A stretch of DNA of 6,613 bases from Acidimicrobiales bacterium (GTDB lineage Bacteria; Actinomycetota; Acidimicrobiia; Acidimicrobiales; RAAP-2), in assembly GCA_030044045.1 (NCBI GenBank), contig JASHWO010000084.1, positions 1 through 6,613 on the forward strand, in the 5' to 3' direction. The notes under the pieces are model-generated. The model was not told where the DNA came from, did not search any database, and saw only the letters and a program-made list of their open reading frames with translations. Shown one piece after another: positions 282 through 6,613 of this stretch (position 1 is the stretch's first letter; each line of letters starts with the position of its first letter). A program made the position numbers and the translations under genes.

Positions 282-1523
282 ATGCGCGAGCTCGTCGCCT
301 TGGAACTCCCGCCCGGGCGGGGGTTCGTCGACGCGCTGCAGGCGGTCTGGGACGCCGGCGACGCCGGCGCCCCCCTCGACCCCCGGCTCCCCCCGCCAGC
401 CGCCCGGGCCCTGCGGGACGCCCTGGCCCCCACCCGGGTGGTGGGACCGGACGGGGCCGCCGTCCGGCTGGCCGGCGGCCGGCCGGTAGAGGAGGGCGAC
501 GCCCTGGTGGTGGCCACCAGCGGCTCCACCGGCACCCCCCGGGGCGTCGTGCTCACCCACGCCGCGGTCACCGCCTCAGCTGTGGCCACCAACGCCCGCC
601 TGGGGGTGGACCCGGGCCGCCACCACTGGCTGGCCTGCCTGCCCCTGGCCCATGTGGGGGGGTTGGCCGTGGTCACCCGGGCCCTGCGCACCGGCACCCC
701 GCTCACCGTACTGCCGGGCTTCGAGGCCGAGCGGGTCGAGCAGGCCGGCCGGGACGGCGGGGCCACGCATGTCTCACTGGTGACCACCGCCCTCCGGCGG
801 ATCGACCCCGCCGTGTTCGCCGCCATCCTCCTGGGGGGTGCCGCCCCGCCCGGCGACCTGCCGCCGAACGTGGTCACCACCTACGGCATGACGGAGACCG
901 GCTCCGGCGTGGTCTACGACGGCCGGCCCCTGGACGGGGTGGAGGTGGCGATCGGCACCGGCCGGCCCGGGGAGGGCGAGGCTGGCGAGGTGCTCCTGCG
1001 CGGTCCCATGCTGCTCCGCTGCTACCGCGACGGCACCGACCCCCGGGTGCCGGGCCCCGACGGGGGCGGGGGGTGGCTCCCTACCGGCGACGGCGGCCGG
1101 CTCCGCCCCGGCGACGGTGGCGATGACGGTGACGGCGGCCCAGGCGATGGCGGCCGCCGCGGTAGTGAAGGCGGCGGTGGTGGCCCCGGCGGCGGGCCGG
1201 CCCTGCTCGACGTGGACGGCCGGCTGGCCGAGGTGATCGTCACCGGCGGCGAGAAGGTCTGGCCGGCGGCGGTGGAGCGGGTCCTGGCCACTCACCCGGC
1301 GGTAGCCGAGGTGGCGGTGTGGAAGCGGCCCGACCCCGAGTGGGGCGAGCGGGTGGTGGCCTGGGTGGTGCCGGCCGACCCCGCCCGCCCGCCCGGGCGG
1401 GACGAGCTGGCCGAGCTGGTGGCGGCCACCCTGTCCCCGTGGGCCGCGCCGAAGGAGGCGGTAGCCGTGGCCGCCCTGCCCCGGACCGCCTCGGGCAAGG
1501 TGCGGCGGGCGGCGCTGACGTAG
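282..1523 (+). CDS. menE: o-succinylbenzoate-CoA ligase (MenE), ANL superfamily
   Basis: MenE activates o-succinylbenzoate with ATP, then forms its CoA thioester, the substrate of the neighbouring MenB, in cytosolic menaquinone synthesis. The 413-aa product shows the adenylate-forming motifs in order: P-loop ATSGSTGTPRG (78-88), LPLAHVGG, YGMTETG (201-207), TGD (268-270), VTGGEKVWP (320-328) and C-terminal PRTASGK with the presumed catalytic Lys406. The VTGGEKVWP and LPLAHVGG forms and the short N-terminus favour MenE over general acyl-CoA synthetases. I chose ATG 282 because recognisable sequence (MRELVALELPPG) begins there. A GTG at 225 in the same frame would overlap menB by 36 bp and add 19 unconvincing residues. 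Odd: residues about 275-306, between TGD and the DGRL segment, form a Gly/Asp-rich insertion that makes the protein longer than typical actinobacterial MenE (roughly 360-390 aa). All core motifs are intact, so it is probably active. It could conceivably act on another aryl acid, but the menB neighbour argues against that. Confidence 0.9.
   Translation: MRELVALELPPGRGFVDALQAVWDAGDAGAPLDPRLPPPAARALRDALAPTRVVGPDGAAVRLAGGRPVEEGDALVVATSGSTGTPRGVVLTHAAVTASAVATNARLGVDPGRHHWLACLPLAHVGGLAVVTRALRTGTPLTVLPGFEAERVEQAGRDGGATHVSLVTTALRRIDPAVFAAILLGGAAPPGDLPPNVVTTYGMTETGSGVVYDGRPLDGVEVAIGTGRPGEGEAGEVLLRGPMLLRCYRDGTDPRVPGPDGGGGWLPTGDGGRLRPGDGGDDGDGGPGDGGRRGSEGGGGGPGGGPALLDVDGRLAEVIVTGGEKVWPAAVERVLATHPAVAEVAVWKRPDPEWGERVVAWVVPADPARPPGRDELAELVAATLSPWAAPKEAVAVAALPRTASGKVRRAALT
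1104..1199 (+). repeat. Low-complexity Gly/Asp-rich coding insertion in menE
   Basis: This stretch encodes residues about 275-306 of MenE, dominated by G and D with a few P, R, S and E. The DNA is a run of GGN and GAN codons with imperfect triplet periodicity (ggcgatg, ggcggc, ggtggt units). It lies between the TGD motif and the DGRL segment, where most relatives have only a few residues. The frame is kept on both sides. It probably arose by slippage of GC-rich triplets and forms a flexible surface loop near the hinge of the C-terminal domain. Confidence 0.75.
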
Positions 1524-5418: not shown

Positions 5419-6613
5419 CTAGGCCACCACGGCCTTGGCCCCGAGCAGCATTTTCAGCTCCCCGACCAGGCCGTTCCGGCTCTCCACGTTGAACTCGGGC
5501 GGCAGGCGGAACACCTTCTCGCCCACCAGGAGCAGGACCGGGGAGGGCCCGGGATGGTCGGCCAGCAGCTCCTTCAGGCGGTCCACCGTCCCGTCGGTCA
5601 GCACCCCGAGCGGCAGCGAGACCCGCAATGCCGACACGCCCTGGGCGTCGAGCGCCGGGCGCCGGATCTCCACCGCCGAGATCTTCGGCTGGTCGTCCCG
5701 CAGGTCGACCCGGCCCCGGACCACCACTACGGCGTCGTTCTCCAAGAGGGCGCCGCACTCGGCCATGACCCGGGGGAACACGAACACCTCCATCGAGGCC
5801 TGGAGGTCTTCCAGCACGAACCGGGCCATGAGGTCGCCCTTCTTCGTGTACTGGCGCTTGAGCTCGGTCACCACCCCGCCGACCGTCCGCACCGACCCCT
5901 CCGCCCCGCCTCCCTCGCCGCCGTACTCCACGCCCCCGGCGTCGCGCAGGTCGGCCAGCGGGCAGTCGGTGTGGCGGGCCAGCGCGTGCTCCAGCCCCAT
6001 CAGGGGGTGGTCGCTCACGTAGAGGCCGAGCATCTCTTTCTCGAAGGCCAGCTTCTGGGACTTGTCGAACTCGCTGTCCGGCAGCGGGACCCGGGTCCCC
6101 TCCCAACGCCCGGCCTCGTTGCCCGATCCCTCGGCCGGCTCGATGGAGGAGAAGAGGGTGGCGATCCCCACCTCGTGCTCGCGGCGCCGTTCCAGGGTGC
6201 GGTCGACGATCTCGTCCAGCACCAGGCAGAGCCCCTGGCGGGGGTGGCCGAGGGAGTCGAAGGCCCCGGCTTTGGCCAGCGACTCCACAGTGCGCTTGTT
6301 CAGCACAAGCGGGTCGACCCGCTGGCAGAAGTCGTAGACGTCCAGGAACGGGCCGGCGGCCTCCCGCTCGGCCACGATGCGCTCGACTAGTCCCTCCCCC
6401 ACGTTGCGCACCGCGGCCAGGCCGAAGACGATGCCTGATTTCCCGCCTGGGGCCCCAACCCCAGGCTCCTCCGATGCGTGGGGCCCCGGCCCCACGCCGG
6501 CCGTGATGCCTGATTTCCCGCCTGGGGCCCCAACCCCAGGCTCCTCCGATGCGTGGGGCCCCGGCCCCACGCCGGCCGTGATGCCTGATTTCCCGCCTGG
6601 GGCCCCAACCCCA
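5419..6613 (-). CDS. dnaE: DNA polymerase III alpha subunit (DnaE), C-terminal third, with in-frame repeat insertion
   Basis: DnaE is the catalytic subunit of the replicative polymerase. About 397 of its usual 1,150-1,200 residues are visible; the PHP, palm, thumb and most of the fingers lie off the right edge. From 6429 downward the match is clear. The helix-hairpin-helix segment FGLAAVRNVGEGLVERIV (about 6373-6426) comes first, then LNKRTVESLAKAGAFDSLG, FEKEMLGLYVSDHPL and an OB-fold (VRTVGGVVTELKRQYTKKGD to SAVEIRRP, about 5656-5900). The short C-terminal domain ends LLGAKAVVA at TAG 5419. The internal clamp-binding site, QxDLF in relatives, reads IATLF here (6151-6165), lacking the Gln. 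Upstream of 6430 the frame runs straight into a perfect 25-residue tandem repeat up to the window edge, where relatives have the end of the fingers region. Either the polymerase carries this insertion or the gene is interrupted. The sequence from 6429 to the stop shows no decay. Confidence 0.9.
   Translation of the reverse strand, partial: GVGAPGGKSGITAGVGPGPHASEEPGVGAPGGKSGITAGVGPGPHASEEPGVGAPGGKSGIVFGLAAVRNVGEGLVERIVAEREAAGPFLDVYDFCQRVDPLVLNKRTVESLAKAGAFDSLGHPRQGLCLVLDEIVDRTLERRREHEVGIATLFSSIEPAEGSGNEAGRWEGTRVPLPDSEFDKSQKLAFEKEMLGLYVSDHPLMGLEHALARHTDCPLADLRDAGGVEYGGEGGGAEGSVRTVGGVVTELKRQYTKKGDLMARFVLEDLQASMEVFVFPRVMAECGALLENDAVVVVRGRVDLRDDQPKISAVEIRRPALDAQGVSALRVSLPLGVLTDGTVDRLKELLADHPGPSPVLLLVGEKVFRLPPEFNVESRNGLVGELKMLLGAKAVVA
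6430..6613. repeat. Perfect 75-bp tandem repeat (about 2.45 copies, open-ended) with two hairpins per unit, in frame with dnaE
   Basis: Copies lie at 6430-6504, 6505-6579 and 6580-6613 (34 bp, cut by the window edge), with no base differences. Each unit is exactly 25 codons in the dnaE frame and encodes a Gly/Pro-rich peptide including GPGPHASEEPG and GAPGGKSGI. In copy 1 hairpin A pairs GCCTGGGG (6445-6452) with CCCCAGGC (6459-6466) over a 6-nt loop. Hairpin B pairs GCGTGGGGC (6476-6484) with GCCCCACGC (6489-6497) over a 4-nt loop. All three minus-strand frames and one plus-strand frame are free of stops through a unit. The copy number beyond the window is unknown. Confidence 0.93.

Follow-up and report, generated by a model that had tools for sequence, protein, structure and literature searches.

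A dispersed palindromic element as the probable source of an in-frame tandem array in the replicative polymerase gene dnaE

The DNA studied here, a stretch of 6,613 nucleotides that we call the window, ends within an exact tandem repeat read in the frame of dnaE, and thereby raises the question of what this repeat is and how it came to lie in the gene of a replicative DNA polymerase. The periodic run has its first base exactly at 6430 and extends to the last base of the window (184 nt). Tandem Repeats Finder describes it as 2.5 copies of period 75 with 100% matches (6430-6613), and within the array the bases are identical at the 75-nt offset in 109 of 109 cases, a regularity that chance does not explain. 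An open frame on the minus strand runs from 6612 to a stop at 5419, array included, and the units follow the dnaE frame, leading into FGLAAVRNVG. The first-pass annotation had described perfect 75-bp units running in the dnaE frame into the helix-hairpin-helix segment, with the window stopping inside the repeat, and both observations hold. It had also proposed a recent expansion or ongoing homogenisation, the former in agreement with the identity of the copies, which suggests recent multiplication. As the contig stops within the array, the copy number (two full units plus 34 nt) is a floor. Each 75-bp unit is a composite of 63 nt that belong to a dispersed element (21 codons, TAGVGPGPHASEEPGVGAPGG) and 12 nt of dnaE (KSGI), and the features of this region are the following:

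5419 to 6429, minus strand: dnaE 3' portion (replicative DNA polymerase III alpha), running from VFGLAAVRNVG as far as the stop codon; over 329 residues it shares 85% identity with the L007 dnaE
6430 to 6441, minus strand: 12-nt spacer AAATCAGGCATC (KSGI), the native dnaE flank adjoining VFGL (many relatives have (R/K)PGIV here)
6442 to 6504, minus strand: first full copy of the element, 63 nt with two hairpins, translated as TAGVGPGPHASEEPGVGAPGG (scored at 71.7 bits by model R2, from which the window was left out)
6505 to 6516, minus strand: spacer copy AAATCAGGCATC (KSGI)
6517 to 6579, minus strand: second full copy of the element (71.7 bits with model R2)
6580 to 6591, minus strand: spacer copy (KSGI), placed by the period of 75
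6592 to 6613, minus strand: incomplete third copy of the element, truncated at the window end, placed by the periodic run to the last base
6476 to 6497, unstranded: first hairpin of copy 1 in the coding direction, GCGTGGGGC-N4-GCCCCACGC, in agreement with the stem columns of the alignments
6445 to 6466, unstranded: second hairpin of copy 1 in the coding direction, GCCTGGGG-N6-CCCCAGGC, a covarying stem

The window dnaE product comprises 397 residues, with HHH_6 and OB-fold domains after the array. It scores 220.3 bits against the replicative model NF004226 and 50.5 bits against the error-prone model NF004225, and its C-terminal part assigns it to the replicative type (DnaE1); the full-length DnaE of the relative L007 scores 1345 and passes the NF004226 cut-off of 1002. 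L007, an Acidimicrobiaceae MAG, represents the nearest genome found. A domain search detected no intein domain in the window dnaE product; elsewhere, the DnaE fragment P0112 carries another kind of in-frame dnaE insertion, an intein-type endonuclease domain (PF14528). The dnaE neighbours are two genes without family match, a DUF255 protein, menE and menB, and as the loci of other genomes, L001 and L005 among them, also have relatives of these neighbours close to dnaE, the locus looks like an ordinary chromosomal one. The window contains other repetitive stretches. The menE-like gene has a Gly/Asp-rich low-complexity insert (GDGGRLRPGDGGDDGDGGPGDGG...) at 1075-1200 (plus strand), the point where tblastn alignments to relatives break (query residues 268-333), and exact tandem repeats of GCCCCG (4.3 copies) and GGCGGCA (4.3 copies) were detected by Tandem Repeats Finder at 1523-1575, between menE and the DUF255 gene.

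The array sits in a DnaE loop of variable length. The 329 sources consulted comprised 89 loci and 240 proteins, with near-duplicates retained; 297 of them yielded the loop, measured from PDVNxSxxxF to FGLAAVRNVG, and 32 did not. Its length spans 8-77 aa, with a median of 15 aa, and reaches at least 30 aa in 16 of the 297. According to a sequence alignment, the DnaE of M. tuberculosis (7pu7, 5lew) has only a short turn at this site, and other repeats occupy the same loop in L005 (TGDS/TGDP), P0108 (GVRET) and P0154 (PAETA). The first-pass annotation had taken this place for a constrained junction in an essential polymerase, a view that the range of lengths in relatives and their own repeats do not support; a change of length here is no surprise for this clade. 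In the structural model of P0003 (pLDDT 78.8, pTM 0.48), residues 143-181 fall under 50 and lie between two strands; the best Foldseek match of this model, used for fold identity only, was M. tuberculosis DnaE 7pu7 (TM 0.36). In the model of the window protein, P0001 (pLDDT 69.2, pTM 0.38), the array is disordered, with residues 1-59 under 50. The product of the array is predicted to be a disordered loop.

The unit folds at -23.5 kcal/mol versus -14.8 for shuffles (z -3.74), with two strong hairpins per unit, and its GC3 is 0.76 versus 0.955 elsewhere in the dnaE fragment (A/T-ending codons 6 of 25 versus 15 of 335, p 0.0016), a low value expected of inserted non-coding DNA.

What the earlier reading lacked was a dispersed two-hairpin element with copies in other genomes and genes. 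A seed of 21 nt from the window unit, with up to 2 mismatches, matched 15 places in 10 of the 397 genomes of the order of L007, and its reversed control gave one match in one genome. Leaving out L121, L127, L128 and L132, which are without hairpins, the 11 places kept, in 7 of the 10 genomes, share a layout of 62-76 nt: ACGGCC, a hairpin, a linker (ATCGGAGGAG in the window), a second hairpin and CGGG. Since these copies were found with a window-derived seed, the central 21 nt cannot count as independent support. At the non-seed positions, taken with the short 5' form seen in 4 of 12 copies, the window unit and the consensus agree at 36 of 42, whereas the best of 1,750,616 background positions reaches 28. 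In addition, the covariance model R2, for which 12 copies other than those of the window were used, recovers both full window copies with an E of 6.4e-11 at the score listed above.

The stems of this element covary. Among the 13 copies first aligned there are 6 pairs with changes on both sides, all those of the first stem coming from one copy (19 cells, where shuffles give 5.3 and slid structures no more than 2). The 67 distinct copies fitted to the model yield 10 such pairs, distributed over both helices and with 6 of the 10 in the first stem (110 cells, where shuffles give 30.3 and slid structures no more than 15). Folding was carried out without the alignments A2, in which the repeat was misplaced, and A3, which had frameshifted rows. 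The linker motif GGAGGAG is invariant in the 13 aligned copies, partly by selection, since most of the linker is inside the 21-nt seed. By six-frame openness, 55 of 62 distinct copies are open versus 42% of shuffled copies, largely owing to their high GC. Searches against Rfam retrieved no family at gathering score in window positions 6300-6613 and, in 8 element loci, two tRNAs only, away from the element.

In what follows, order and family are those of G001, the genome of L007, and the name Acidimicrobiia is taken from the titles of L007 and its neighbours. At least 33 of 397 genomes in the order match model R1, which includes the window copy, at E<=0.01 (best 13 candidates scored per genome), and with 150 candidates scored R1 finds, in six genomes, at least 50, 31, 26, 23, 15 and 10 matches respectively. 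Only 1 of 172 genomes in the family of L007 gives a weak match (30 candidates scored in each), so that the window's nearest sequenced kin are mostly without the element. BLAST searches with the repeat DNA found none in the 172 genomes of this family; in G001 there is no R1 match, and BLAST gives only short matches, the best with an E of 0.01. At the level of the phylum, 2 of 296 sampled genomes match at E<=0.001, one of them being the centre, G240, itself. Searches for the repeat DNA in plasmids, and for its exact patterns in viral contigs, gave no match. Among the papers listed by a literature search there was no description of the element, an earlier one being possible, and, judging by titles, nothing on repeats in this DnaE loop.

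In 60 regions picked for their matches plus the window, 85 matches were found, and 15 of these 61 sources contain arrays, with periods of 70-87. In many arrays the repeated unit joins the element either to 8-13 nt that are found again behind the last copy or to a third hairpin; in those of L178 and L213 the spacer is absent after the last copy, which implies that the copying of element plus flank is not universal. A third small hairpin (GCGGCGAAGCCGCCAGCAA), which doubles as an array spacer, follows the element in L182, L187, L191, L198 and L205 (genomes including G345, G314, G248 and G201). A crude test, which the window cannot pass because its array lies at its end, flagged a coding ORF across a copy in 6 of the 61 sources; of these, the ORFs in L219 and L216 proved convincing when read. 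Going by this crude ORF test, the majority of copies seem to fall outside genes.

Searched alone, the repeat peptide is found in at least seven unrelated proteins at E<=0.01 (7993 candidates scored), and in-frame copies thus appear to exist in several unrelated genes, an RPE-like trait. The best candidate in-frame interruptions are those of ArgD, UvrC and a DnaE2-like polymerase. ArgD (P0246) is a good case, with 409 residues versus 377 model positions. In UvrC (P0244) the element falls within the RNase H domain match (188 residues versus 159 positions); another UvrC model crosses the same spot without net insertion, so the UvrC linker is itself variable. The DnaE2-like error-prone polymerase (L219:1-3099, minus strand) has the element in its PHP domain (197 residues versus 164 positions), read in another frame than the copy in the window DnaE. 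A helicase ORF (L216:1022-3100, minus strand) carries an in-frame element outside its Pfam domain; this helicase shows a distant likeness to DISARM DrmD (112 bits versus a cut-off of 610). N-terminal copies occur in PriA (P0241, three copies), a CoA-transferase (P0242) and a seryl-tRNA synthetase (P0243), where they may be untranslated. A DUF72 protein (P0247) contains several copies in mixed frames, and a further peptide-bearing protein, P0245, has no known domain.

The gene dnaE itself is a rare target of the element. None of the 28 dnaE loops of element-bearing genomes carries it. R1 found no match at E<=0.05 in the dnaE loci of 80 relatives (880 kb), a result in favour of an inserted origin. 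Outside these samples, P0002, from another contig, bears a single diverged copy of the element at the same place in dnaE, and GPHASEE is conserved between the loops of P0002 and P0003, which are variable elsewhere. In the phylogenetic tree, a clade with support 99/96 unites P0002, P0003 and the possible remnant P0214, and the window branches elsewhere with weak support; constraining the dnaE element bearers to a single clade was not rejected (AU p 0.241).

Taken together, these observations make it highly probable that the array derives from a dispersed palindromic element that was inserted in frame in a variable DnaE loop and was then multiplied in tandem. Set against this reading are the rarity of the element in the family of L007, its absence from the 28 dnaE loops of element-bearing genomes and the derivation of the seed from the window. 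The element would have entered dnaE just upstream of KSGIVFGL, an insertion that would be tolerated because 63 nt keep the frame and the Gly/Pro-rich product forms a disordered loop. Slippage or unequal exchange, with the hairpins helping, would subsequently have duplicated the element together with the 12 nt of its flank. Because spacers recur in arrays and single copies show no regular duplication, the best fit is an insertion that duplicated no target, after which element and flank would have been copied together in tandem. Indeed, 29 of 38 single copies lack a direct repeat of score >=7, and among the 9 that have one, 5 possess the third-hairpin flank and the other 4 look like array remnants. 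L125, outside these 38, has ATGTAAC on both sides. Target-site duplication as such looked good in arrays but failed in most single copies, and was rejected. The same applies to a RAYT mobiliser: no PF01797 (Y1 transposase) match over cut-off was found in 16 genomes of unstated completeness (15 carriers plus G001), the control search being positive in 5 of 14 known genomes, E. coli included. A weak PF01797 match in G248 (20.9 bits versus a cut-off of 23) stays below threshold.

Among the other explanations, the one that survives best, unlikely as it is, holds that the element is not a selfish insertion but a regulatory RNA leader, acting on mRNA through two hairpins around a Shine-Dalgarno-like GGAGGAG. 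Copies in L194, L195 and L209 end 17, 8 and 7 nt before ATGs, in front of tuf-like genes (two places in G314) and an rplC-like one, with GGAGGA between their hairpins, and the covarying stems and the invariant GGAGGAG of the 13 aligned copies would suit such a role. However, part of that invariance reflects the choice of the seed, Rfam offers no match, and the copies also occur inside proteins, in more than one frame, and in tandem arrays.

An assembly artefact, arising from a repeat-graph loop on a single copy or from a dnaE end joined to an array located elsewhere, appears quite improbable. The window does end within the array, and arrays of this element trouble assemblies, as exemplified by a run of N within that of L175. 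The pure artefact considered in the first-pass annotation is weakened as an alternative: a graph loop can lead to miscounted copies, but it could form only from reads that cross the GGCATC/ACGGCC junction, and arrays of the same element exist in other genomes. Moreover, every spacer is dnaE sequence (KSGI), so that the internal copies belong to dnaE, and P0002, on another contig, has one diverged copy at the same dnaE place.

Plain slippage expansion of the native loop, with any likeness elsewhere due to coincidence or shared GC-rich composition, would agree with the variability of the loop, with the short repeats of relatives (L005, P0108, P0154) and with two hairpins per unit, which favour slippage, but it is very improbable and largely refuted by the score of the window copies under a model built without them, by the excess of non-seed matches over the background and by the same peptide within unrelated proteins. 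The two hairpins, the low GC3 and the GPHASEE conserved in P0002 and P0003 likewise point away from simple slippage. This plain loop expansion had been our first reading, dropped on finding the element in other genomes and proteins.

Beyond the insertion in dnaE followed by tandem multiplication, we tentatively consider, as a possibility somewhat short of even, that the copies belong to an active and undescribed family of Acidimicrobiia elements whose spread does not depend on a REP-type transposase, and which settles in genes of replication and repair (dnaE, dnaE2, priA and uvrC) and grows into in-frame arrays there. If this were true, the polymerase that copies the hairpins would carry a variable-length loop made of them. 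For the replicative polymerase, the array in dnaE may amount to a natural polymorphism of length. There is a practical warning as well: in these metagenome assemblies, the element may lie behind contig ends and unusual Gly/Pro inserts.

Several known systems resemble what we describe here. Low-complexity loop repeats concern the same kind of disordered, variable-length loop in an essential enzyme, but the sequence of the array derives from a dispersed DNA element and not from protein. MITEs are also small, non-autonomous and dispersed, but the element shows no regular target-site duplication. Rickettsia is the best-known example of dispersed palindromes entering working proteins, and other bacteria provide further cases. 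The element resembles RPEs in being a dispersed palindromic repeat that interrupts unrelated genes in frame; compared by description, it differs in its lineage and in its structure of two hairpins around GGAGGAG (~64 nt) and tandem arrays with spacers. The accessible part of PMC5656822 presents another in-frame RPE, and that of PMC12306157 names Acidimicrobium ferrooxidans in a table of REP counts. REPs, as portrayed in the accessible part of PMC3733652, are short palindromes with many copies, some grouped and some inside ORFs, many of these of DNA synthesis or repair, and include one within dnaE in R. conorii, so that the kind of insertion reported here is already known. REPs carry a GTAG or CGTC tag at one end (PMC3733652, same part), whereas the 13 copies end in ACGGCC and CGGG with no such tag; unlike RAYT-associated REPs, the element has a direct two-hairpin form of ~64 nt, and its 15 carriers have no Y1 transposase over cut-off. 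The element works like an RPE and fails the REP tests made, and an Acidimicrobiia family with tandem growth in coding genes would provide a second system in which to study the movement of such elements and their absorption by proteins.
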